NCBI RefSeq assembly: GCF_000485905.1
Contig: NC_022664.1
Coordinates: 682,001-746,000, forward strand
DNA from: Spiribacter curvatus
GTDB taxonomy: Bacteria > Pseudomonadota > Gammaproteobacteria > Nitrococcales > Nitrococcaceae
DNA: 64,000 nt
Reading direction: 5' to 3'
Part shown: one piece after another, positions 35,818 through 51,432 of the stretch
How the letters are laid out: every line of letters begins with the position of its first letter
How positions within the stretch are numbered: the stretch's first letter is position 1
Translations under genes and position numbers: made by a program
The notes under the pieces: generated by a model
Database searches by the model: none
What the model was told of the DNA's origin: nothing
What the model saw: the letters and a program-made list of their open reading frames with translations, nothing else

Positions 35818-36387
35818 ATGACCGACGAATTGCACGAGTGGGCCCGATCCCTCGATACGCTGCGTGAGCAGGCATGGAAGCGTCTATCCCGCGGCGTGGC
35901 CGATCGCCGGGCGGCCGCCCGCCATCCAACGCTCGCGAGCGTCGATCGGCAGGGGATGCCGCGGGCGCGAACGGTCGTGCTGCGCGCCGCCGATCGGGAT
36001 CAGGCGAAGCTCAGAGTCTACACCGATCGCTATGCCGACAAGGTCGATGAACTGCAGGCGACGCCCCATGCCGGAATCCATGTGTGGGATCAGAGTGCTC
36101 ACCTGCAGATCCGACTACTGGCTGATGTCGCCGTGCAGGTCGGCACGGCCGTCGAGCCCGTCTGGGCGGAACTCTCTGAGCATGCGCGGAACTGCTACGG
36201 TTTCCAGCCAACATCCGGTGCCCCGATCGCGGACTCGCTCGGGTATGAACAGTGGCCTCAGCCATCGGCCTTTGCGGTGCTTGATATGACCATCCAGCAA
36301 ATGGACATTCTCCACCTGGGCAATCGTCACCGCCGCGGCTGGTTTGAGCGTCAGGATGAGTGGGTGGGGCGCTGGATCGTGCCCTGA
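35818..36387 (+). CDS. Pyridoxamine 5'-phosphate oxidase-like FMN-binding protein
   Basis: This 189-residue split-barrel flavoprotein has HPTLASVDRQGMPRARTVVLRAADRDQ and LRVYTDRYADKVDELQATPHAGIHVWD, corresponding to the FMN-binding PNPOx core. FAVLDMTIQQMDILHLGNRHRRGWFER is the C-terminal block. It lacks the PdxH C-terminal substrate motif, so a PdxH role is unlikely; related proteins are alr4036-type. Its last 37 nt overlap the convergent LOV/EAL gene. Confidence 0.83.
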   Translation: MTDELHEWARSLDTLREQAWKRLSRGVADRRAAARHPTLASVDRQGMPRARTVVLRAADRDQAKLRVYTDRYADKVDELQATPHAGIHVWDQSAHLQIRLLADVAVQVGTAVEPVWAELSEHARNCYGFQPTSGAPIADSLGYEQWPQPSAFAVLDMTIQQMDILHLGNRHRRGWFERQDEWVGRWIVP

Positions 36388-39188
36388 GGGCCAGCCAGCT
36401 GGATCTGCCACTGCGAGGCGGGCATTGGGCGGCTATAGTAAAAGCCCTGGCCGATCCAGCAGCCAAGACGCTGAAGCGCCTCGACGTGCTCAGCGGATTC
36501 CACGCCTTCGGCGACCACCTGCGCGCCGATCGCCTCGGCAATGGCATGAACCGCCTTCACGATCGCCTGTCCGTAGGCCCGGCCGCTCAACTGCCAGATA
36601 AAGCTCTTGTCGATCTTGATCTCGTCGAAGGGGTAATCGTTGAGATGACCGAGCGATGAATAGCCCATCCCGAAGTCATCGAGTGACAGCTTCACGCCCA
36701 TTCGATTGATGGCGTTCAGGTCGACCTTCAGCGCCTCGCAGTGCTCCTCGAAGACGCTTTCGGTGATTTCCAGTGTGAGCTGGTGGGGGGCGATGCCGAA
36801 ATCCGTCAGCGCGCGGCTGACAATGTCGGGGACCGAGCCGAGCTGGAACTGCACCAGCGAGATGTTGACGGAAATGGGTGCGACTGTCAGCCCGGCGTCC
36901 TGCCATTGCCGCATGTCCTGGCAGGCCTGGCGCAACACCCACTCACCCATCGGTGCGATGAGCTGACTCTGCTCGGCGAGCGGAATGAATGCCGCCGGTG
37001 GGAGGAGTCCCCGTTCGGGATGCTGCCAGCGCAGTAATGCCTCCGCTGACACCAGGCGACCATCGTTCATATCAACCTTGGGCTGATAGTAAAGCCGGAG
37101 GTCATTGCACTCGAGTGCCGAGCGTAGCTCACGGGTCGTCGTCACCACAGCACGTGTGTGCTGCTCGAGCGCGCGGGTATATTGCGTCCAGGTGACGGAG
37201 AGTCTTTGCTGGCTCCGTCGCAGCGCCAACTCGGCATTGTTCATCAGCGTCTCCGAATCGACGGTTTCCGTCGTGCCGACCCGGGCATAGCCGAACGCAA
37301 CGCCAATAAAGACCCGAAAGCCGCTGACCTCGAAGGGGGTATCGAAAAGCGCCGCCAGGCGCTGGCGCCAGCGTGCGGGTGTGTGCGCCCGGTCGACCGC
37401 CACAATGACCAGAAACTCGCCACCCGCCGGACGGGCTATCCGGTTGGCGTGGCCCACCGCGGCGGTCAGCCGTCGCCCCGCTTCCCGGAGGACCTCATCG
37501 CCGACTGCGAAGCCCTGCGCATTATTAATCTCGCGCAGACCGGAGATATCGATAGAGACAATCAGACTCGCTGGATGGAGGACACGCGCCTCACGGAGCT
37601 CATCGAGTTTCCAGGCAAAGCCGTCGCGCGAGAGCAGCCCGGTGACACGATCGGTGTAGGCGGCACGCTCGAGGGCCTGATGGGCGTCGTTGAGCTCGGT
37701 TTTATCAGTAATCGAGGCGATCACCCGCCGCTCGTGATCATCGCTGAAGGAATTGAGACCAATCTCGGCACTGAATTCGGTCCCGTCACGCCGAACGCCT
37801 TTGACCTCGCGGTTCATCCCCATCCGGCGTAGTGATGGCGATGCCATAAACCGATCCCGCAGCCGATGATGGCGATCGCGCACCGACAACGGCACCAGCG
37901 CATCAACCGACATGCCTTTGAGTGCCTCCACCGAGTAATCGAACAAGTGGGCCGCCTGCTCGTTGGCGTACTCGATGGTGCCATCACTGTTCACCATGAG
38001 CATGCCGGTCGGTGCATTCTGGATGACCCGGAAGAGGTTCTGTTCGGCCTGGCGCAGCGCTGTCACCTCCTGCGATACACCAAACCATTCCAGCAGCTGA
38101 CCCTCGTCACCCAACACGGGTGCGATGCGATCCTGGAACCAGCGCGGTGAGGTGGCGTTGGCTGGCAGCGGATAGGTCACCTCAAACGGTGTGACCGCCT
38201 CCAGGGCCTGCGCCCAGCGCTCACGAAAACGTTGTGCGGTGTAGGTTCCGAGAGCCGTCCGAATATCCGCCAGCGCCGGTCGCGTGTCACCCTTCGGTAA
38301 TCCGGCCAGTGAAAGCCATCGCCTGTCAATATCCCGAATGACGCCATCGGCGTCCATGTGCCAGATGTAACTAGCGACACTGTTGACCAGGCTCTCGTGA
38401 CGGCGCTTCTGCATGTCGAGCGACGCCAGCGCGGCCTGTTCACGACTAACGTCGGTCTGTATGCCAACGATATGGGAAATATGCCCATCAGCCGCTCGGA
38501 TGGGTCGCAATTTCAGCCGATTCTGGAATCCCTCCCCGTTGCGGCGGACGTTCTCGATGACCGTCGTACAGTCCACACCGCGTGCAAGCGCATGGCGGAT
38601 GGTCTGAACCGCGGCCTGATCGGTCGAGTGCCCCTGCATGAACCGACAGTTCCGGCCCAGCAGCTCGGCCCGGGAGTAGCCGGTCAATCGGGTGAACGCC
38701 TCGTTGACATAGATGAGCGGCGTATCCTCGAGGTTGGGATCGGCAATGGTGACCCCACATTCCACATCGGCGAGCGCGGCGGCAAGGAACGGCGGTTGCT
38801 GTCGCACCACCCGCTCCCTTGCCGTTTCTGTCGCGAGCGCGTGAGCCAGCGCCACGGCATGGTTGGTCTGCGCCGGATCACGCAGTACAAAGACAAGGAC
38901 CGCGGCCCCGTCACCATGCGCGGTACTGAGCGGCTCGATCCCGATCAGTGCGGCATCCGCGAAAGGACCTCCAGCGGGTGCAGGCAGCGTTCTGGGGTGG
39001 CCGTCGCGCAGCGTCTGGGCGACGGCCGGTAAGTCAAGGAGCGGCTGAGCCGGTGGTTGATCACAGAGGCAGTGGACGGGCAGCGGCTGGTCCTCGACCA
39101 CGACAGCGGTGCAGCTGACGTCGAACACCGCATGGAATGCCTCGGTGATATCACGGAGCAGTGCGTTGTATCGCCCTGCGATGGTCAT
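36351..39188 (-). CDS. LOV/PAS-PAS-PAS-GGDEF-EAL protein: blue-light-sensing c-di-GMP phosphodiesterase candidate
   Basis: This 945-residue protein is cytosolic with no TM helix seen. After an N-terminal region of about 130 residues comes a LOV-type PAS domain: NEAFTRLTGYSRAELLGRNCRFMQG places the flavin-adduct Cys at residue 181 in GRNCRFMQ. Two further PAS domains follow at about 265-375 and 385-500. The GGDEF domain is degenerate (AGGEF in place of GGDEF). The EAL domain is intact: SAEALLRW, ITESVFEE, LDDFGMGYSSLGHL, IKIDKSFI and VAEGVES. It would therefore degrade c-di-GMP, with light altering activity. Its 3' end overlaps the PNPOx-like gene by 37 nt. Confidence 0.9.
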   Translation of the reverse strand: MTIAGRYNALLRDITEAFHAVFDVSCTAVVVEDQPLPVHCLCDQPPAQPLLDLPAVAQTLRDGHPRTLPAPAGGPFADAALIGIEPLSTAHGDGAAVLVFVLRDPAQTNHAVALAHALATETARERVVRQQPPFLAAALADVECGVTIADPNLEDTPLIYVNEAFTRLTGYSRAELLGRNCRFMQGHSTDQAAVQTIRHALARGVDCTTVIENVRRNGEGFQNRLKLRPIRAADGHISHIVGIQTDVSREQAALASLDMQKRRHESLVNSVASYIWHMDADGVIRDIDRRWLSLAGLPKGDTRPALADIRTALGTYTAQRFRERWAQALEAVTPFEVTYPLPANATSPRWFQDRIAPVLGDEGQLLEWFGVSQEVTALRQAEQNLFRVIQNAPTGMLMVNSDGTIEYANEQAAHLFDYSVEALKGMSVDALVPLSVRDRHHRLRDRFMASPSLRRMGMNREVKGVRRDGTEFSAEIGLNSFSDDHERRVIASITDKTELNDAHQALERAAYTDRVTGLLSRDGFAWKLDELREARVLHPASLIVSIDISGLREINNAQGFAVGDEVLREAGRRLTAAVGHANRIARPAGGEFLVIVAVDRAHTPARWRQRLAALFDTPFEVSGFRVFIGVAFGYARVGTTETVDSETLMNNAELALRRSQQRLSVTWTQYTRALEQHTRAVVTTTRELRSALECNDLRLYYQPKVDMNDGRLVSAEALLRWQHPERGLLPPAAFIPLAEQSQLIAPMGEWVLRQACQDMRQWQDAGLTVAPISVNISLVQFQLGSVPDIVSRALTDFGIAPHQLTLEITESVFEEHCEALKVDLNAINRMGVKLSLDDFGMGYSSLGHLNDYPFDEIKIDKSFIWQLSGRAYGQAIVKAVHAIAEAIGAQVVAEGVESAEHVEALQRLGCWIGQGFYYSRPMPASQWQIQLAGPQGTIQRPTHSS

Positions 39189-41178: not shown

Positions 41179-43212
41179 ATGACTGACCAGACACTGCGTT
41201 TCCAGCTCGAGAGTGACTTCGAGCCCGCCGGTGACCAGCCCACGGCCATCAAGACACTCGCCGGGAGCCTGCAGTCAGGGCATTCGCACCAGACACTGCT
41301 CGGCGTGACCGGATCAGGTAAGACATTCACGATGGCGAGCCTGATCGCAAAGGAGCAACGCCCCGCGGTGGTGCTGGCGCCGAACAAGACGCTCGCCGCC
41401 CAGCTCTACGGCGAGATGAAGGCATTCTTCCCCCATAACGCGGTCGAGTATTTCGTCTCCTACTACGATTACTACCAGCCCGAGGCCTATGTGCCGGCAT
41501 CGGATACCTTCATCGAGAAGGACGCCTCGGTGAATGAGCACATCGAGCAGATGCGGCTGTCAGCGACCAAGGCGATCATCGAGCGGCGCGATACCATCAT
41601 CGTTGCCTCGGTCTCGTCGATCTACGGGCTGGGTGATCCCAGCGCCTATCTGAAAATGGTGCTGCACCTGAAGGTGGGCGAACAGGTGGATCAACGCCAG
41701 ATCCTCCGGCGCCTGGCGCAGCTGCAGTACGCGCGTAACGACTACGATTTCTCGCGCGGCAACTATCGCGCCCGGGGTGATGTGATCGATATCTTCCCCG
41801 CGGAGTCCGAGGACGAGGCGGTGCGAGTCGAGCTTTTCGACGACGAGATCGAGAGCCTTGCCTGGTTCGATCCACTCACCGGCGAGGTCCTGCGCCGTGT
41901 CCAGCAGCTGACCGTCTATCCCAAGTCCCACTATGTGACGCCACGCGACACGGTTCTGAGCGCGGTGGAGAAGATTAAAGTCGAGCTCCAGGAGCGGCTC
42001 GAGCAGCTCCAGGGCGCCGGGCGGCTGCTGGAGGCCCAGCGGCTTGAACAGCGCACCCGGTTTGATCTGGAGATGATGCAGGAGCTTGGCTACTGCAACG
42101 GCATCGAGAACTACTCGCGCTATCTCTCCGGCCGGGGGCCGGGGCAGGCACCACCGTGCCTGTTCGACTACGTGCCCGATGATGCAATGCTGTTCATCGA
42201 CGAATCACATGTCACAGTCTCGCAGGTGGGCGGGATGTACCGCGGTGACCGCGCCCGCAAGGAGACGCTCGTCGAGTACGGCTTTCGTCTGCCGTCGGCG
42301 CTCGACAACCGGCCACTGAAGTTCGAGGAGTTCGACACCATCGCCCCGCAGCGGATCTACATTTCAGCGACACCCGGTCCGTATGAAAAGCAGCACTCCA
42401 GCGCCGTGGCCGAGCAGGTGGTGCGGCCGACCGGGCTGGTCGACCCACAGATCGAGGTCCGGCCGGCGGGGACGCAGGTGGACGATGTGCTCGGCGAGAT
42501 CAACGAACGCAGCCAGATCGGTGAGCGCGTACTGGTGACCACGCTCACCAAGCGTATGGCGGAGGACCTGACCGAGTACCTCTCCGAGAACGGCGTACGG
42601 GTGCGCTACCTGCACTCCGATATCGATACCGTGGAGCGCACCGAGATCATCCGTGACCTGCGGTTGGGGGCGTTCGATGTGCTGGTGGGCATCAACCTGC
42701 TCCGCGAGGGGCTGGACATCCCGGAGGTCTCCCTGGTGGCGATCCTGGATGCCGACAAGGAAGGCTTCCTGCGCGCTGAGCGCTCACTCATCCAGACCAT
42801 CGGCCGGGCCGCCCGGAACGTCAACGGCCGCGCCATTCTCTATGCCGATCAGATGACCGACTCAATGAGTAAGGCAATCAACGAGACCGAGCGCCGGCGC
42901 GAAAAACAGATCGCCTACAACGAGGAGCACGGGATTACGCCGCAGGGTATTCAAAAGGCCATCGCCGATGTCATGGAGCGGGGCGGCGCCAGTGCCCCTG
43001 ACACCGCCGAGCACTATGCCGAGGTGGCCGATGAGGCCAAGGCCTATGCCGACCTGACGACAGCCCAGGCGGTGAAGCGGATCAAGGAGCTCGAGCAGAA
43101 GATGCATCAGCACGCGCGCAACCTTGAGTTCGAGGAGGCCGGTAAACTGCGTGACGAGGTTAAACGGCTGCAGCGTCATGCGCTTGGGGAGCCCGATCGG
43201 GACAGTGCCTGA
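41179..43212 (+). CDS. uvrB: UvrABC system protein B
   Basis: This 677-residue excision-repair helicase has Walker [14 protein letters not shown], the beta-hairpin [21 protein letters not shown] that clamps the strand, DEXD-type [13 protein letters not shown]-terminal helicase blocks [26 protein letters not shown] and QTIGRAARN, and a terminal UVR domain ([26 protein letters not shown]) that binds UvrA/UvrC. I found no CTGT-N8-ACAG SOS box upstream. Its stop overlaps the start of the NadQ-like gene. Confidence 0.97.
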
Positions 43213-44192
43213 TGGCGTTGAGTGAGGGGGCAAGCCCGGCAACCGTCGACCTGACCGCGGTGATCGTCGCCATGATCGATGGCGAGCCGCGTATCCTCAC
43301 CGTCCGGCCTGGCGCCGGCGAGCCGGATACATTGCCCTGCGGACCACTGCAGCCTGATCACCGCACCCTCCAGGCCGGACTGCGCAGCTGGGTCGCCCAC
43401 CAGACCGGGCTCCGGCTCGGCTACATGGAACAGCTCTATACCTTCGCCGATCGCGATCGGGCCAATAGCGAAGCCGCTGATGGCCCGGGTGTGCGCCCTG
43501 TCTCGGTCGCCTATCTCGCCCTGGTCAACGAGGTTGAGCATCAGCATCGAGCGGCCACCGCCTGGCAGCCCTGGTATCACTACCTGCCCTGGGAGGACTG
43601 GCGGACGCAACGCCCAGCGGTCGTTGACACCATCCTTGCCGGGCTGGCGCGCTGGGTCGAGGCGGCGCCCAGTGCGCAGAAACGCATGCGCCGCACCGAG
43701 CGTCTGCGGCTCGCCTTCGCGAGCGACGCCACCCCCTGGGACGAGGAACGATCGCTGGAGCGCTACGAACTGCTCTACAGCGCCCGGCTGCTCTCCGAGG
43801 CCTGGCATGACCAGGGGCTGGTGCCACCCGCCGATCTGGGCGGGCGCCCCGATCGTCCCATGGCGACCGATCACCGTCGCATCCTTGCGACGGCCGTCGG
43901 TCGGCTGCGTGGCAAGATTAAATACCGACCGCTGCTTTTCGAACTGATGCCGCCCACTTTCACGCTGCTGCAGCTCCAGCGCACGGCAGAGGCGCTATCC
44001 GGGGCGCGGCTGCATAAACAGAACTTCCGCCGACTGGTGAAACGCCAGCATCTGGTGGAAGAGACCGGCGAACATGAAACACAGACCGGCGGCCGCCCCG
44101 CCCGGTTGATGCGATTCCGTCCCGCGGTCACGCTGGAGCGGCCGGCGCCCGGTGTCGATATCAAGACCGGTGGACGCGTAGCTCGTCCCTGA
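43212..44192 (+). CDS. NadQ/NrtR-like transcriptional regulator of NAD synthesis (dead Nudix + winged helix)
   Basis: This 326-residue protein has an N-terminal Nudix-like domain (about residues 12-150). The Nudix box is destroyed: CGPLQPDHRTLQAGLRSWVAHQTGL lacks the REUxEE catalytic glutamates, as in NrtR-type sensors. A C-terminal winged helix (about 235-310) includes LFELMPPTFTLLQLQRTAEALSG, and KQNFRRLVKRQHLVEE is its recognition region. It stands immediately upstream of nadA with twin palindromes between. NadQ regulators described in Alphaproteobacteria share this architecture and nadABC context. It would sense an NAD metabolite and repress nadABC. Confidence 0.82.
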   Translation: MALSEGASPATVDLTAVIVAMIDGEPRILTVRPGAGEPDTLPCGPLQPDHRTLQAGLRSWVAHQTGLRLGYMEQLYTFADRDRANSEAADGPGVRPVSVAYLALVNEVEHQHRAATAWQPWYHYLPWEDWRTQRPAVVDTILAGLARWVEAAPSAQKRMRRTERLRLAFASDATPWDEERSLERYELLYSARLLSEAWHDQGLVPPADLGGRPDRPMATDHRRILATAVGRLRGKIKYRPLLFELMPPTFTLLQLQRTAEALSGARLHKQNFRRLVKRQHLVEETGEHETQTGGRPARLMRFRPAVTLERPAPGVDIKTGGRVARP

Positions 44193-44223
44193 TCAGACGG
44201 TCATATCGAAGCCTCAATCGGGC

Positions 44224-44253
44224 TTGATGAAACTTCTCTCCTGATCTTATGCT
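44224..44253 (+). promoter_or_regulatory. Candidate nadABC promoter
   Basis: TTGATG (44224-44229) and TATGCT (44248-44253) are 18 bp apart. The -10 box lies within the first palindromic operator, so a regulator bound there would exclude RNA polymerase. The assignment is from the sequence only; CAATAT at 44273 is an alternative -10. Confidence 0.4.
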
Positions 44254-44267
44254 CAAAGCGTGCATAA
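44249..44267 (+). promoter_or_regulatory. Palindromic operator 1 upstream of nadA
   Basis: ATGCTCAAAGCGTGCATAA, with outer arms TTATGC and GCATAA forming an inverted repeat. It matches operator 2 at 17 of 19 positions and overlaps the candidate -10 box. Confidence 0.75.
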
Positions 44268-44291
44268 CGGTGCAATATCGTCACGCCATTA

Positions 44292-44310
44292 ATGCTCAAA
44301 TCGAGCATAA
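44292..44310 (+). promoter_or_regulatory. Palindromic operator 2, next to the nadA ribosome site
   Basis: ATGCTCAAATCGAGCATAA contains the perfect inverted repeat ATGCTC-AAATC-GAGCAT. Its start is 43 bp (about four helical turns) from operator 1, so both sites face the same side of the helix. It abuts the GGAG ribosome site at 44311. Confidence 0.8.
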
Positions 44311-44320
44311 GGAGCGTTCA

Positions 44321-45298
44321 GTGGAAGCAGTCATGGAACAAACACGCCAGTCACGGGAGCGGTTGCGGGATACCATCCCACCGATGGAATGGGCGATCTT
44401 CGAGCCCGAGATCGACGCGATCCATCGCCTCAAGGCCGAGCGTAACGCCGTTATCCTGGCGCACAATTACCAAACGCCGGAGATATTCCATGGTGTGGCC
44501 GATATTGTCGGTGATTCCCTGGCGCTGGCGCGCCGGGCCGCGGAGACCGAGGCCGATGTGATCGTTCAGGCGGGCGTGCACTTCATGGCCGAGACCTCGA
44601 AGCTGCTGTGCCCGGATAAGACCGTTCTGATCCCGGACCTCGCCGCCGGCTGCTCCCTGGCCGAATCCATCACCGCCAAAGATGTCCGCGCGCTGCGCGA
44701 GCGCTATCCGGACGTTCCGGTCGTGACCTATGTGAACACCTCAGCGGCGGTCAAGGCCGAGTCCGATATCTGTGTGACCTCGGGCAATGCGGTCCAGGTG
44801 GTCGAGTCGCTGGGTGTGGACCGGGTGATCTTTCTGCCCGATGAGTATCTGGCGCACTACGTAGCGCTGCAGACCGATGTCGAGATCATCTCCTGGAAAG
44901 GGCACTGCGAGGTGCATGAACGCTTCACCGGCGACGAGATCCGTCAGTACCGGCAGGCGCATGACGATCTCATGGTGATCGCCCATCCGGAATGCCCGCC
45001 GGATGTGCTGGCGGCGGCGGATGAGGTGGGCTCCACCGCGCAGATGATCAATGCCGTGTCATCGCGCAAGCCACGCCGGGTGCTGATGGTCACCGAATGC
45101 TCAATGAGCGATAACGTGGCCGCCGAAGTGCCGGAGGTGGAGTTCGTCCGTCCCTGCAACCTGTGCCCGCACATGAAACGGATCACCCTGCCGAAAATCC
45201 GGCAGGCGCTGGAGTATGGCGCCCCGCGGGTGGAGATCGAGACCGATGTCGCCGATCGGGCGCGTCAGGCCGTGACACGGATGCTGGCCGTGCGATGA
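44321..45298 (+). CDS. nadA: Quinolinate synthase
   Basis: This 325-residue [4Fe-4S] enzyme condenses iminoaspartate with dihydroxyacetone phosphate. [26 protein letters not shown] is the N-terminal block, and the cluster cysteines are expected among LLCPDK, HPECPP and [40 protein letters not shown] is diagnostic. The GTG at 44321 has AAGGAG 6 nt upstream and is preferred to an in-frame ATG at 44249, which lies inside operator 1. The stop overlaps nadB (ATGA). Confidence 0.95.
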
Positions 45299-46845
45299 AG
45301 GCCGCGAGCGCGAAGAACCGGCCGGTGATTGTGGTGGGTGCCGGTATCGCTGGACTGGCGACGGCCCTTCGACTCGCGCCGCTGCCCGTGGTGGTGCTGA
45401 CCGCCGGGCGCCTGCGTGAGAACACATCCACAGCCTGGGCCCAGGGCGGGATCGCCGCAGCGATGGCGGGTGATGACGCGCCCGCTCTGCATCAGGCCGA
45501 TACCGAAGCCGCCGGTGTCGATCTGGTCGATCGTGCCGTCGCGCGGGCGGTGACCGAGGCGGCGCCGGCGTGTCTGGATCACCTCGCGGCCCTCGGTGTG
45601 CCCTTCGACCGAGGGGCTGATGGCGTTCTGGCGATGGGGCTTGAGGGCGCACACAGCCGCCATCGAGTCGCCCATGTAGGCGGTGATGGCAGTGGTGCGG
45701 CCATCCTCAACAGCCTGATCAAGGCAGTCGGCGCAACGCCGTCGATTCAAGTCCGCGAACGCGCGGCGGTCGAGGGACTGATCACGGCGTCAGGTCGTGT
45801 TCAGGGCGTTCGAGTTGCTGATACCGATCTCACCGGTCGTGCGGTCGTGCTGGCCACCGGTGGTCTGAGTGGGCTGTATGCCGATACCACCAACCCCCTG
45901 GGCGCCGCGGGCCGTGGCCTGGCCATGGCGGCGCGGGCGGGCGCTGCCATCGCCGACGCCGAGTTCGTCCAGTTCCACCCCACCGCGATGGCGGTGGGAC
46001 GCGATCCGATGCCCCTCGCCACCGAGGCCCTGCGGGGTGAAGGCGCGACACTGGTCAACCGAGCGGGTGAGCCGTTGATGGCGGATACCCCGGGCGGCGA
46101 TCTGGCCGCGCGGGATATCATCGCCCGGCGTATCCATGCCGCGCTGGAAGCTGGTGATGGCGTCTATCTTGATGGCCGCTCGGCGATCGGTGATGCATTC
46201 CCCAGCCGCTATCCGGCGGTCACTGCTGCCTGTCAACGTGCCGGCATTGATCCTGCCCGTGCTCGCATCCCGGTCCGGCCAGCGGCGCACTACCACATGG
46301 GAGGTGTCGCGGTGGATGGCAGTGGGCGGACCACCGTCGAGGGGCTATGGGCCTGCGGTGAAGTGGCGGGTAGCGGTCTGCATGGTGCCAATCGCCTGGC
46401 AAGCAATTCACTGCTCGAGGGACTTGCCTTTGCCCGCTGGATCGCCGAGGACATCGCCGGACAGACCGATGTGCATCGAGCCCGGACGGATGACCCGGGA
46501 CGGACAGGAACCTTTTCAGGCATGGGCGCCAGCACCTGGATCCGCGACTGCATGAGCGATTATGTGGGCGTTGTCCGGTCGGCCGCCGGACTCGATAGGG
46601 CCATTGAGGCCCTGACGCCGGTGGCCTTCGATGTGCAGCATCGGCAGGCTGATCCGGCGCTTGCCGGGCTGTTTGTGGCCACTGCGGCACAACGGCGCAC
46701 GGAAAGCCGTGGTGGGCACCTGCGTGATGACTGTCCGCAGACGCGCTCGCCTGCGCCGGCCCGGGCGTCCCTGACGCTGGCGGACCTTGCCCACTCCGGA
46801 TCTGTCCCCGGCGTTATTGATCGAACAGCGAGGGCCCTCGCATGA
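45295..46845 (+). CDS. nadB: L-aspartate oxidase
   Basis: This 516-residue flavoprotein oxidises aspartate to iminoaspartate for NadA. The FAD fold is [31 protein letters not shown] follows the family pattern, VQFHPTAM and [12 protein letters not shown] line the active site, and [13 protein letters not shown] with [17 protein letters not shown] are late FAD blocks. The start is ATG 45295, overlapping the nadA stop; the longer frame has no homology. The C-terminal helical domain is shorter and divergent. Confidence 0.94.
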
Positions 46846-47705
46846 TCGGCGTGACGGATCCGAGCCGCGTCCAGCTCGAGCCGCTGGTCCGTGCGGCGCT
46901 GGCGGAGGATCTCGGCCGGGCCGGTGATGTGACCAGCGATGCTGTCTTTCCCGCGGACGCGACAATGGCTGGGGTTATCCGCGCCCGTGAACCGGGTCGG
47001 ATCGCGGGTACCGCCGCCGCGGCGTTGGCGTTCTCGCTGCTTGACGAGCGGGTGATGGTGGAGCGGGTCTGCGCGGATGGCGACACGGTCGCGGCGGGCT
47101 CAGTGATGATGCGTCTGACGGGTCCGGCACGGGCAATCCTCGCCGCCGAGCGAGTCGCCCTGAACCTGCTCTGCCATCTGAGCGGGATCGCGACCGCCGC
47201 GGCGGCGCTGGTCGCGGCAACCGGTGACTGGCCGGCCCGAATCGCCTGCACCCGCAAGACTACACCCGGCCTGCGCGGACTGGAAAAGCATGCAGTCCGG
47301 GCCGGCGGTGGCGTCAATCACCGCTTCGGGCTCGACGACGCGATGCTCATCAAGGACAACCATATCGCTGTAGCCGGTGGCATCGGACCCGCACTGGCCC
47401 GGGCCCGAGCCGCGGCCGGGCATCTGGTGAGAATCGAGGTAGAGGTGGATACGCTGGAGCAGCTCGAGGCGGCGTTGACCGGTCAGGCCGATGCCGTGCT
47501 ACTCGACAACATGGATCCGGCGACGCTGGCCGAGGCCGTCCGCCGTGTGGACGGCCGGGCAGTCACTGAGGCGTCCGGTCGGGTCAGCCGCGAGACGATC
47601 GCCGCCGTGGCGGCCAGTGGCGTAGACATCATCTCGGTCGGCGCCCTGACGCACAGCGCGCCGATCCTCGACCTGGGACTCGATACCGAGTCGACGGCGG
47701 ACTGA
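46842..47705 (+). CDS. nadC: Nicotinate-nucleotide pyrophosphorylase (quinolinate phosphoribosyltransferase)
   Basis: This 287-residue enzyme forms nicotinate mononucleotide from quinolinate and PRPP. It contains [75 protein letters not shown] and [13 protein letters not shown] with the metal/substrate residues. [30 protein letters not shown] closes the barrel. It overlaps nadB by 4 nt, completing a translationally coupled nadABC operon. Confidence 0.96.
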
Positions 47706-49400
47706 TCAGGCCTCGGCGGCCTCGCCATACCGCGGCCCGCGCGGGAGTTTGCCAACGCCCGGGTTGAAGCGGTTGGTGGGGTCCAGTCGGCGGTAGAAAG
47801 CCGCCAGCGGCGGCTTGGCGGGATAGAGGTGGCCCACATTATGCTCGGCCGGGTATTCCGCACCGCGTTCGTCGAGGATCTCCAGCATTTTCGCCTTGTG
47901 AGCCGCCACATCGGCCCCCTCGCGGAATACGTAGTCCTGATGGAATACGTTGCAGAAAAAATGCCCGTAGTAGAGCCGATGCATCAGATCACGGGTGATG
48001 CTCTCGGGCAGTTCCTCGAACCAGTCCCGATCGTTGCGCGCGAGGGCAATATCCAGCGCCAGGATATCCTCGACCTCCTTGTGGTGGATGGTCTGGTAGC
48101 GCACACCGGCCCCTGCGGCGGCGAAGCGATGCAGCATCGCCCGTTCGGCCTCGTCCGCTGTGCAGCGGAACCAGGCATCAGGGAAGCATTCCTGGAGGAA
48201 TCCCTCCGTCTCCTCGGCCATGTCACCGTTAGCGCGCAGGATCAGGTGATGCTCGAAACGGTCGCGCCATTCAACGACGCGCTCAGGCAGCGGGTCAGGG
48301 GCGAGCCATGACAGACGCTGGAGGACATGATCCGTGATCGGTGCGGGCAGCAGCGGTAAGCGCCGGAAAAAAGCGTCAATGCGGGTCTTGAGCGCAAACG
48401 CTTTGGGCAGACGGGCCGTACCCAGTTTTTTGATCAGCAGGAAACTGTCCTTGCCGTAGCGGCGAGCCACGTCAAACAGCTCGCGGTGCAGATACTCCGC
48501 TGTAATCGGCAGTCTGGAGGCCTCGCGCAGGAACCGTGCCCTGAATTCCGCCATCTCGTGCGTGTCGTTACTGCCGATGTAGTACGTCCGTACATCCGAC
48601 TCCTGTTCGAATGTGTCCATACGGACCGCGAATACCATCACCTTGCCGGCACTGCCCGAAACACCGTAGAGCAGCCGGGGATCGTTGTTGAACCGCGCTG
48701 CGCCGGGTTCGTCAGCACCGCGGATGATCTCGGGATAGCCGTCATCGCTCGCCTTGCCGGCGTTCCAGTCGATATCTTCGGGGCGGTAGTCACCGTGCTC
48801 AAGGCGATCGAGGATCGCCTCGGGCGTGTCGCCTAGATCGATGCCAAGCTCGTTGACCAGCTCGAGCTCACCGTCTTCGTTGACGCGGGCGTAGACGGCG
48901 AGCTCGGTATACGCGGGCCCGCGCCGGCACAGCGCACCACCGGAGTTGTTGCAGACACCGCCGACGACGGTCGCCCCCAGCGAGGTGGAACCGATCACCG
49001 AATGCGGCTCGCGCCCGTGCGGCGCCAGTGTCTGGGTCAGCTCGAACAGCGTCGCACCGGGTAGGGCGATGGCCTGGTCGGCATTGCCGAGCAGCTGCAG
49101 ACCCTTGATGCGCATGGCGTTGATGGCAACGGCGGGGCGGTCGTAGGTGTCCTTGGGCGTTGAACCCTCGGTGAGCCCGGTGTTAGCCGCCTGGGGGACG
49201 ATGACAGCACCTGCCTCGATGGCGGCCTGGGTGCAGTGCCAGAGCTCAACCAACGTACCCGGATGGACGACAGCGACGGCATCGCCACTGCCTGAACGAT
49301 ATCCGGTCCGGTAGGGCCGTGTGGCGGCCGCATCGGTCAGTACGTGCTGCTCGCCGGCGATGCGCTGCAGCCGCTGGATAAGCTCGTCTGTCGCGTCCAT
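47706..49400 (-). CDS. dld: Quinone-dependent D-lactate dehydrogenase
   Basis: This 564-residue FAD enzyme of the E. coli Dld type oxidises D-lactate at the membrane. The PCMH FAD domain (about 20-270) includes VIVPQAANTGLTEGSTP and STSLGATVVGGVCNNSGGALCRRG. The Dld-specific C-terminal half includes GYPEIIRGADEPGAARFNNDPRLLYGVSGSAGK, RANGDMAEETEGFLQ, and YPAEHNVGHLYPAKPPLAAFYRRLDPTNRFNPGVGK. The start at 49400 (MDATDELIQ) follows a GAGAGGGA ribosome site; the frame is open 60 codons further but without homology. It lies 16 nt after lldD. Confidence 0.93.
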   Translation of the reverse strand: MDATDELIQRLQRIAGEQHVLTDAAATRPYRTGYRSGSGDAVAVVHPGTLVELWHCTQAAIEAGAVIVPQAANTGLTEGSTPKDTYDRPAVAINAMRIKGLQLLGNADQAIALPGATLFELTQTLAPHGREPHSVIGSTSLGATVVGGVCNNSGGALCRRGPAYTELAVYARVNEDGELELVNELGIDLGDTPEAILDRLEHGDYRPEDIDWNAGKASDDGYPEIIRGADEPGAARFNNDPRLLYGVSGSAGKVMVFAVRMDTFEQESDVRTYYIGSNDTHEMAEFRARFLREASRLPITAEYLHRELFDVARRYGKDSFLLIKKLGTARLPKAFALKTRIDAFFRRLPLLPAPITDHVLQRLSWLAPDPLPERVVEWRDRFEHHLILRANGDMAEETEGFLQECFPDAWFRCTADEAERAMLHRFAAAGAGVRYQTIHHKEVEDILALDIALARNDRDWFEELPESITRDLMHRLYYGHFFCNVFHQDYVFREGADVAAHKAKMLEILDERGAEYPAEHNVGHLYPAKPPLAAFYRRLDPTNRFNPGVGKLPRGPRYGEAAEA

Positions 49401-49416
49401 GATTCCCTCTCTCGGC

Positions 49417-50583
49417 TCAGTTGGCCCAGCGACCCTCGAAATCCTCGGGTATATGCAGGATCTCGCGGTTGACCTCGTTGATATCGCGATGACCGCAGAG
49501 CGCCATGGTGGTATCGAGTTCCTTATGCAGAACCTCGAGTGCTTTGGTGACACCGTCCTGGCCCATCGCCCCCAGCCCATAGACCCATGCGCGACCGATC
49601 ATGACGCCGTCGGCGCCGAGCGCGAGGGCCTTGAGGATGTCCTGACCGGACCGTACACCGCTGTCGAAATAGACCTCGATGCGATCACCCACTGCCTCAA
49701 TGATGTCCGGCAGCACGCGGATGCTGCTCAACGCCCCATCGAGCTGGCGGCCGCCATGGTTGGAGACAACGATGGCATCGGCGCCCAATTCCACGGCGCG
49801 CTCGGCATCCGCGCGGTTCATGATGCCCTTGAGCACGACCTTGCCGCCCCACATGTCCATCAATTCCTTGACGCGGTTCCAGTCCAGCGAGTGATCGAAG
49901 GCCTCCGCCGTCCATGACGACAGAGAGCTTGAATCGGTCACGCCCTGCGCGTGGCCGACCACGTTACCGAAGGTCCGGCGTTTCGCGCCGAGCATCTCCA
50001 GGCCCCAGGAGACCTTCGTCGCCAGATTGGCGATGGACTTGATCGTGAGCTTGGGCGGCGCGCTCAGCCCATTCTTCAGGTCCTTGTGGCGCTGCCCCTG
50101 GACCTGTAGGTCCAGCGTGATGACGATCGCCGAGCAATTGGCCGCCCGCGCACGCTCCATCAGCCGACGCATGAAGTCGTCATCCGACAGCGTGTAGACC
50201 TGGAACCAGAATGGCTTCGTCGTTTCCGCGGCGACATCCTCGATCGAGCAGATCGACAGCGTAGAGAGCGTGAACGGCACGCCGAAATCCTCGGCCGCCT
50301 TGGCGGCAAGGATCTCGCCATCGGCGTGCTGCATGCCAGTCAGCCCCACCGGTGACAGCGCCACCGGCATCCGGACGTCCTCACCCAGCATCTGGCCCGC
50401 CGTGGTGCGGTTGGTCATGTCGATGGCCACCCGCTGGCGGAAATAGATCGACTGGAAGTCGCTGCTATTTTCCTGAAACGTCTGCTCCGTCCAGCTACCG
50501 GTCTCGCAGTAGTCATAGAACATCTTTGGCACGCGGCGCTTGTACAGACGCTTGAGGTCATCGATGCAGGTGATGACGGCCAC
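49417..50583 (-). CDS. lldD: L-lactate dehydrogenase (FMN-dependent, quinone)
   Basis: This 388-residue alpha-hydroxy-acid dehydrogenase oxidises L-lactate to pyruvate. VAVITCIDDLKRLYKRRVPKMFYDYCETGSWTEQT is the canonical LldD N-terminus. VSNHGGRQLDGALSS contains the catalytic His, and FDSGVRSGQDILKALALGADGVMIGRAW binds FMN phosphate. The start is GTG 50583, with GCGGAGGC 8 nt upstream. The reading frame is open well beyond this point into an AEC permease with no stop between, so one continuous 671-codon frame (49417-51432) also exists. Confidence 0.92.
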   Translation of the reverse strand: MAVITCIDDLKRLYKRRVPKMFYDYCETGSWTEQTFQENSSDFQSIYFRQRVAIDMTNRTTAGQMLGEDVRMPVALSPVGLTGMQHADGEILAAKAAEDFGVPFTLSTLSICSIEDVAAETTKPFWFQVYTLSDDDFMRRLMERARAANCSAIVITLDLQVQGQRHKDLKNGLSAPPKLTIKSIANLATKVSWGLEMLGAKRRTFGNVVGHAQGVTDSSSLSSWTAEAFDHSLDWNRVKELMDMWGGKVVLKGIMNRADAERAVELGADAIVVSNHGGRQLDGALSSIRVLPDIIEAVGDRIEVYFDSGVRSGQDILKALALGADGVMIGRAWVYGLGAMGQDGVTKALEVLHKELDTTMALCGHRDINEVNREILHIPEDFEGRWAN

Positions 50584-51432
50584 TTCATTTGCCTCCGCGG
50601 TTGGTGAGATGATCCCCAGGGCGGTCGAGAAGAAAATCCCGGTGGAGGTCTGGGCCGGGCGGAGCTGATATCGCTGGGCGAGGACGTAGACGTTCGCGGC
50701 GACCGGCAAAGCGGCCTGAAGAATGCCGACGGCCACCCAGACCGGGGGTAGATCGAATAGGCCGATGAGCGCGACGGCCACGAGTGCCGGATGCACGATC
50801 AGCTTGAGCAGACAGACCCAGGCGGTCTCTCCCGCACCCTGGCTGATAGGGCGACCGGCGAGCGTTGCGCCGAGGGCAAAGAGCGCGCATGGACCGGCCG
50901 CATCGGCCAGTAACCCGCCATAGCGCATGAGCGGATCAGCGATCGGCACCTGCGTGAGATTAAGCGTCAGACCGATGACACCAGCCATGACGATCGGGTT
51001 TTTCACCACGCCGACCGCGATGCGCCTGAAAAGCGCGGATAGCGCGCGCGGGTCGCCGAGATCGGCCTCGATGAGCGCGGTCGCAAGGCCGAGCATCACG
51101 ATGGTATCCCCCATCACGATCGCAACCGCCGGTAGTGCCGCTTCGCTTCCGAACAGGAGGATGACGAGCGGCAGCCCGATGAAGCCGACATTGGAGAAAA
51201 CGGCGGCGAGCGCCTGTACGGCCGCATCGGCGAGGCGGAGCCCGATCAACCGTCGGGCGATCAATAGCGCCGCGAAGAAAAGCGCGATCCCCGGCAGGTA
51301 GTAACCGGCGATGAGCGACCCGATGTCCCGGGTCGCAGCGGGTGCCTGGTAAGTCTCGACCAGCAGCAGCGCGGGGAGCGCGAAATAGAATACGAACGTA
51401 TTCAGTCCCCCCACCGTATGCTCGCTGAGCAT
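50584..51432 (-). CDS. AEC-family (auxin efflux carrier) permease, truncated at both ends and in frame with lldD
   Basis: About 283 codons encode a hydrophobic AEC transporter: LNTFVFYFALPALLLVETYQ, VFSNVGFIGLPLVILLFGSEA, VKNPIVMAGVIGLTLNLTQVPI, LQAALPVAANVYVLAQRY and TSTGIFFSTALGIIS. The first ATG (51432) already lies inside helix 1: the same frame upstream reads VINLALPFFALIFTGYLAASAR with no ATG, GTG or TTG, while overlapping the end of frnE. At the 3' end the last helix is cut short and runs directly into LldD. It may be a lactate permease expressed as a fusion, or a decaying gene. Confidence 0.65.

Follow-up and report, generated by a model that had tools for sequence, protein, structure and literature searches.

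A NAD synthesis module downstream of uvrB

The 64,000-nucleotide stretch of Spiribacter curvatus DNA analysed here (the window; NC_022664.1, positions 682,001 to 746,000) carries, behind uvrB, a gene for a NadQ-type regulator followed by nadA, nadB and nadC, with two predicted operators in the interval between nadQ and nadA. The features of the locus, in window coordinates, are:

41179..43212 (+): uvrB, the native gene that flanks the module on its upstream side (NF003673, E 0; aspC-uvrB adjacency)
43212..44192 (+): nadQ, Nudix-like winged-helix repressor, 326 aa; its start codon overlaps the uvrB stop codon (junction TGATG)
44224..44253 (+): probable nadA promoter; -35 box TTGATG at 44224-44229, 18-bp spacer, -10 box TATGCT at 44248-44253
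44247..44267 (no strand): O1, predicted distal operator, TTATGCTC-N5-GTGCATAA; one mismatch to the consensus core
44290..44310 (no strand): O2, predicted proximal operator, TAATGCTC-N5-GAGCATAA; perfect ATRCTC-N5-GAGYAT core
44309..44314 (+): Shine-Dalgarno sequence AAGGAG of nadA, from the sequence; shares two bases with the end of O2
44321..45298 (+): nadA, quinolinate synthase of alphaproteobacterial type (PF02445, 9.2e-114; tree); GTG start
45295..46845 (+): nadB, L-aspartate oxidase of alphaproteobacterial/betaproteobacterial type (NCBIfam NF005701, 1.1e-190); overlaps nadA by ATGA
46842..47705 (+): nadC, quinolinate phosphoribosyltransferase (TIGR00078, 8.1e-92), its best hits beyond the genus being alphaproteobacterial; overlaps nadB by ATGA

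The two ATGA overlaps bear out the coupled nadABC operon behind a regulator that had been proposed from the sequence alone (the original prediction). The start of nadA is most likely the GTG at 44321 and not the ATG within the first operator, which is the start given in the list of open reading frames; at the aligned position, relatives have ATG (genomes G003 and G012) or, in one case, GTG. It is very probable that the locus is a self-contained module for de novo NAD synthesis of foreign, alphaproteobacterial origin, in which NadQ would act on two operators before nadA. The basis for this reading seen here is the identity of the genes, the operators and their conservation, an all-or-none distribution, and phylogeny.

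The regulator belongs to the NadQ family

The regulator had been described as NadQ/NrtR-like. The NadQ part of this label stands, the nadQ product matching PDB entry 7q91 (‘NADQ transcription factor') over residues 10-316 of 326 (phmmer, E 2.2e-87), and the NrtR part does not, the score with the NCBIfam NrtR model being 62.1 bits against a curated cut-off of 400. We take 7q91 to be the protein of Agrobacterium tumefaciens. Weaker similarity is found with 3gz5. The expected C-terminal winged helix is recovered as PF21906 (NrtR_WHD) at residues 243-302, with 70.7 bits against a cut-off of 27 (E 1.2e-19), and the predicted structure has a pLDDT of 83.7 and a pTM of 0.84, the winged-helix part reaching a pLDDT of about 90.

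The Pfam scan gave no Nudix match for the nadQ product. The former Nudix box was read by eye in an alignment of 34 NadQ sequences chosen from the 92 rows of a first NadQ tree, the catalytic glutamates being placed with the Nudix box consensus. The residue following the invariant Arg58 is not Glu in any of the 34 (it is Asp in three), and a Glu at position 62, four residues after Arg58, is kept in 24 of them and replaced by Ala in the window protein. The box is degenerate, as had been supposed, and since the first of these glutamates is missing throughout the alignment, loss of catalysis is probably a family trait. NadQ is moreover a known family with earlier reports from some gammaproteobacteria, so that the suggestion of an unreported branch fails.

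Two predicted operators before nadA

The NadQ consensus is published as ttATRCTCannntGAGYATaa (accessible part of PMC5343134). The two 19-mers of the original prediction, at 44249-44267 and 44292-44310, lie exactly where they were placed, are identical at 17 of 19 positions and start 43 bp apart. At up to three mismatches, the 19-mer pattern has only these two matches in the window, where shuffles expect 0.12 and one of 100 shuffles had at least two; the genome-wide search that had been proposed adds two places, both with three mismatches, and the reversed control gives none. Palindromy of the two sites alone is unexceptional: 7 and 8 of their 10 arm positions pair, and 21-mers elsewhere in the window reach 9 of 10. 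The two operators owe their credibility to their repetition, their agreement with the NadQ consensus and their conservation in relatives. By virtue of the two shared bases, O2 does abut the nadA ribosome site. The proposal that the other palindrome lies on the -10 box stands in part: the arrangement is kept in all four Spiribacter genomes that carry the module, while both promoter boxes are weak by consensus (4/6 each). Upstream of nadQ itself, the window showed no operator.

A wider regulon was sought with the NadQ core consensus in this genome and in three Spiribacter without nadQ, the reversed pattern serving as control. Besides O1 and O2, this genome has five core sites with at most one mismatch. 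The four that were read in their context (all but the one at 861721) lie within open frames of at least 150 codons, which carries little weight where GC is high. The nicotinate phosphoribosyltransferase match at 622711 is more than 80 kb from each of the five. At two mismatches there are 212 sites in this genome against 45 in the control, and 215, 176 and 160 against 58, 43 and 35 in the three Spiribacter without nadQ. The excess is comparable where the regulator is absent and is therefore no sign of a regulon.

Conservation and asymmetry of the operators

Ninety-four loci have a full nadQ together with nadA; counting copies of one genome, 92 have a site with at most two mismatches and 82 have at least two sites. 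Without such copies and without loci with short upstream sequence, 73 distinct loci are left, 70 with at least one site at up to one mismatch and 50 with at least two, where base shuffles expect 0.10 and 0.000. Where nadQ is lacking and nadA is of the other type (under 50% identity), none of 22 loci has a site at up to one mismatch. For the nearer nadA type without a full nadQ in the stretch, 22 of 35 loci have a site.

Exactly two sites at up to two mismatches are present in 55 of the 73 loci, which were taken as operator pairs, the other 18 being left out. In 52 of the 55 pairs the distal site deviates at position 12 of the core, where GAGYAT has its first G, and the proximal site is perfect in 48. 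Among 28 genus-level representatives, which include several near relatives, count each record without a genus name singly and are not fully independent, 25 deviate at this position of the distal site, 17 of them with T. A TTGACA-like box (at least 5/6) precedes the right arm of the distal site by 16-18 bp in 19 of the 28; in front of the proximal site, one of the 28 has such a box at those offsets. A probable cause of the one-base deviation is that the distal right arm serves at the same time as a -10 box (TAGCAT or similar). Methylobacterium, which supplies 20 of the 55 pairs, does not conform to this reading: no TTGACA-like box is suitably spaced in its representative. The four module-bearing Spiribacter have TTGATG or TTGATT 18 bp before TATGCT, the left arm, each box matching at 4/6, and the promoter therefore seems to have shifted to the left operator arm in this genus.

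Neither operator asymmetry nor Spiribacter NAD genes are mentioned in the accessible parts of PMC5343134, PMC11452294, PMC12421817 and PMC3832224; the 2022 NadQ paper may describe the asymmetry. Words beginning with NAD, nicotin, vitamin or auxotroph are absent from the main text of PMC3832224 as far as it is accessible, and a literature search combining Spiribacter with NAD biosynthesis returned nothing.

The module is all-or-none within Spiribacter

nadQ, nadA and a full-strength nadB occur together in the same 4 of 14 Spiribacter genomes. The other ten, five of which have a completeness of 90% or more and contamination of 5% or less, matched neither NadQ nor NadA, and for NadB showed a single match near E 1e-35, the strength of a related flavoprotein that we take to be SdhA. 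The nicotinate phosphoribosyltransferase family PF04095 is over its cut-off in all 14, with modest E-values (7.4e-9 to 6.6e-5).

Near full-length NadQ is found in 5 of the 23 genomes of the family. In five others (G014, G015, G019, G020 and G022), a frame of 232-250 aa that immediately adjoins a nadA of the other type matches over the winged helix; two of these frames also match about 70 N-terminal residues, one match crossing a stop. We label these frames NrtR-like, and two Nudix-type repressors, each beside a different nadA, seem to alternate within one family.

The original prediction had remarked on uvrB beside NadQ. The uvrB neighbourhood is native: aspC and uvrB are neighbours in each of the 15 family genomes for which the surroundings of uvrB were mapped, whether they carry the module or lack it. 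nadQABC lies directly between uvrB and a D-lactate dehydrogenase gene in three of the four carriers; in the fourth, G012, a stretch of about 6 kb with other genes lies between uvrB and nadQ. This G012 interval (L172:1-6300) differs from the other carriers and includes, among other frames, two that resemble CobW-type GTPases (named by eye). In the 12-19 kb read around uvrB in nine module-less genomes, no nad homologue was found (tblastn, E 1e-10, 60 bits), and the genes after uvrB vary among the stretches listed. The GC content of nadQ, nadB and nadC is 67.7-69.8%, that of the window 63.6%.

Phylogeny points to an alphaproteobacterial source

In the NadQ tree (56 rows), Spiribacter, the family genome G021 and Rhodovibrio sodomensis form a clade (100/98), and a single clade for the 13 NadQ rows from the class is rejected (p-AU 1e-11), two of these rows being long branches. 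A quick NadA tree (111 rows) gives the same company plus G219, with support of 99. The nearest named outsider of both proteins is Rhodovibrio. In a quick NadB tree (75 rows), the window protein falls within a 46-row set of mainly alphaproteobacterial forms (support 99), seven family members standing apart; outside the genus, eight NadAs and seven NadBs of the family belong to a different type. After the window's own, the 29 best NadB matches in the phylum sample, among those given loci, all come from outside the class, and the first match from within it, in G418, has 48% identity. Taken together, the NadQ clade with Rhodovibrio, the rejected class clade and the placement of NadA and NadB among alphaproteobacterial forms support the horizontal transfer that had been suggested. 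A foreign, alphaproteobacterial origin appears well supported for the module as a whole, regulator, operators and enzymes. As for a single donor, NadQ and NadA suggest one; NadB and NadC do not.

A tree of uvrB and aspC from 21 of the 23 family genomes (two have no uvrB match) places the four carriers in one derived clade within the genus (100/100), with G021 as the sister of the genus. The uvrB matches G012:C20:2098-4071 and G015:C75:2098-4071 have the same coordinates and scores, and G015 has a second uvrB, which suggests a contaminating contig in G015.

How the module may work and how it may have arrived

NadQ is probably made together with uvrB, by cotranscription. It would bind the two predicted operators before nadA, O1 over the -10 box and O2 43 bp downstream at the nadA ribosome site; a NadQ dimer on O1 would exclude RNA polymerase, and one on O2 may act as a second block, in the manner of a road-block. 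By analogy with the NadQ family, from which both repression and release from DNA by ATP are carried over here, plentiful ATP would free the operators and the coupled nadA-nadB-nadC message would be made, the predicted products converting aspartate to quinolinate and then to nicotinate mononucleotide. NadQ is called ‘ATP-responsive' in the title of Minazzato et al. 2022. The module would have settled behind uvrB in one Spiribacter clade, whose members should be niacin-independent.

A further reading, which we put forward tentatively and rate somewhat short of an even chance, is that de novo NAD synthesis, once lost from a streamlined lineage, was restored by uptake of a complete regulated module from a halophilic alphaproteobacterium, the promoter being re-registered between the operator arms after transfer. 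If this is true, niacin dependence switches on and off within one genus.

Several observations count against the interpretation as a foreign, NadQ-controlled module. The spacing of the operators ranges from 26 to 97 bp and is not of one helical phase, which disfavours a fixed loop; fixed helical phasing was accordingly dropped. The O1 of the window deviates at another base (GTGCAT) than the one usual in the NadQ family, and a promoter scan found none of the weak nadA promoter boxes at its threshold. The nearest outsider of NadB by path is a Burkholderiales record, and for NadC, compared by score alone, the best matches outside the genus are a genome from outside the class and Methylobacterium (67-70%). 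nadA has a GC content of 63.3%, like the window. Because the uvrB and aspC genes adjoin the module, linked recombination could help to make the carrier clade. The roles of the module in binding, expression and growth are, finally, predictions.

Alternative explanations

The strongest alternative, to which we give nearly an even chance, is that the module entered before Spiribacter and G021 split and was later lost in most Spiribacter, the carriers having kept it. G021, the sister of the genus on uvrB and aspC, has nadQ-nadA at another place (63% and 78% identity), its NadQ forms one clade with those of Spiribacter (98/91), and grouping the NadBs of the two in a single clade is not rejected (p-AU 0.27); one early acquisition and two events are thus not separated. 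Against this, the uvrB and aspC topology demands at least two losses where one gain would do, and the nadB of G021 lies far from its nadQ-nadA and pairs with Rhodovibrio in the quick NadB tree (98, two long branches meeting), as its NadA does weakly (82). The nine module-less genomes read around uvrB showed no nad homologue there, though an old loss need leave none.

It is unlikely that only O2 is a working operator and O1 mainly promoter sequence resembling part of one. The fixed deviation of the distal site next to a mostly perfect proximal one, and the TTGACA-like box confined almost wholly to the distal site, would fit this view; however, both distal arms are kept, mostly with the outer TT and AA/AT, which is more than a -10 box needs.

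Vertical descent of NadQ and the nad genes in Gammaproteobacteria, with loss in most lineages, is very improbable. NadQ is found at E 1e-40 in 9 of 369 genomes of the class, the window included; in this taxonomy the class also takes in betaproteobacteria. NadA is matched in 188 of 339 class genomes, and among the matches listed there are 15 others at 58-74% identity, one at 49% and one at 54% (partial length), the remaining rows having 33-46%. The eight other class genomes with NadQ and the fifteen with such a NadA are what this explanation can call upon, whereas NadQ at E 1e-40 occurs in only 5 of the 54 genomes of the order and the family's other NadAs and NadBs are of a different type; vertical descent within the class was rejected by the NadQ topology test. 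Matched by genome handle, 10 of the 15 have no NadQ at E 1e-40.

That the regulator is an ADP-ribose-responsive NrtR is hardly credible, for the shared PF21906 domain and the resemblance to 3gz5 are set against the low NrtR score, the near full-length match to 7q91 and an operator that is the NadQ motif.

Neighbouring genes

Downstream of the module, a D-lactate dehydrogenase frame (47706-49580, -) extends, with its listed start, 164 bp into the neighbouring frame; the real start is uncertain, relatives matching from residue 1, 3, 55 or 61. The single frame at 49417-51432 (-) joins a PF03547 membrane transport domain (residues 2-276) to a complete PF01070 FMN-dependent dehydrogenase (298-659), probably of the L-lactate type. 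In 14 related stretches the dehydrogenase part of this fusion is found in four and the transporter part in none, and among 875 matching plasmid records none covers 80% of it. The genome is described as poor in regulators in the accessible part of PMC3832224; in contrast, the frame at 36351-39188 (-) encodes a 945-aa protein with PAS, GGDEF and EAL domains.

Significance and comparison with known systems

Three points go beyond the original prediction: the apparently foreign character of the enzymes as well, the all-or-none occurrence of the module among Spiribacter genomes, and the conserved asymmetry of the distal operator. Here a regulator accompanies its operators and enzymes in a foreign host, and the history of the module predicts which strains need vitamin B3. 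The cultured Spiribacter sp. UAH-SP71, which has the module, and S. salinus M19-40, in which no nadA or nadB match was found, should differ in niacin need, a difference relevant to cross-feeding in brines. That one arm probably also serves as the -10 box would explain simply why the distal NadQ operator is lopsided in many Proteobacteria.

The locus shares with NadQ (COG4111) of Proteobacteria (PDB 7q91-7q94) near full-length homology, the winged helix, the degenerate Nudix box, the operator motif and the linkage to nadABC. It differs in that nadQ overlaps uvrB and lacks a detectable operator of its own in the window, and in its host, a halophilic gammaproteobacterium. NrtR, the Nudix-related regulator of NAD synthesis, has the same winged-helix domain and overall plan, but the window protein is below the cut-off of that family and the nadA beside the five NrtR-like frames is of the other type. 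The closest parallel in layout is with the alphaproteobacterial nadQABC operons of Rhodovibrio, Methylobacterium and Mesorhizobium, which have the order nadQ-nadA-nadB-nadC and, in most loci read, paired operators, although the Rhodovibrio locus has one operator site only. In many of them the -10 box is apparently the right arm of the distal operator, whereas in Spiribacter it is probably the left. The system is thus an ordinary NadQ regulon in kind, with a foreign origin that is well supported and a patchy distribution that is informative.

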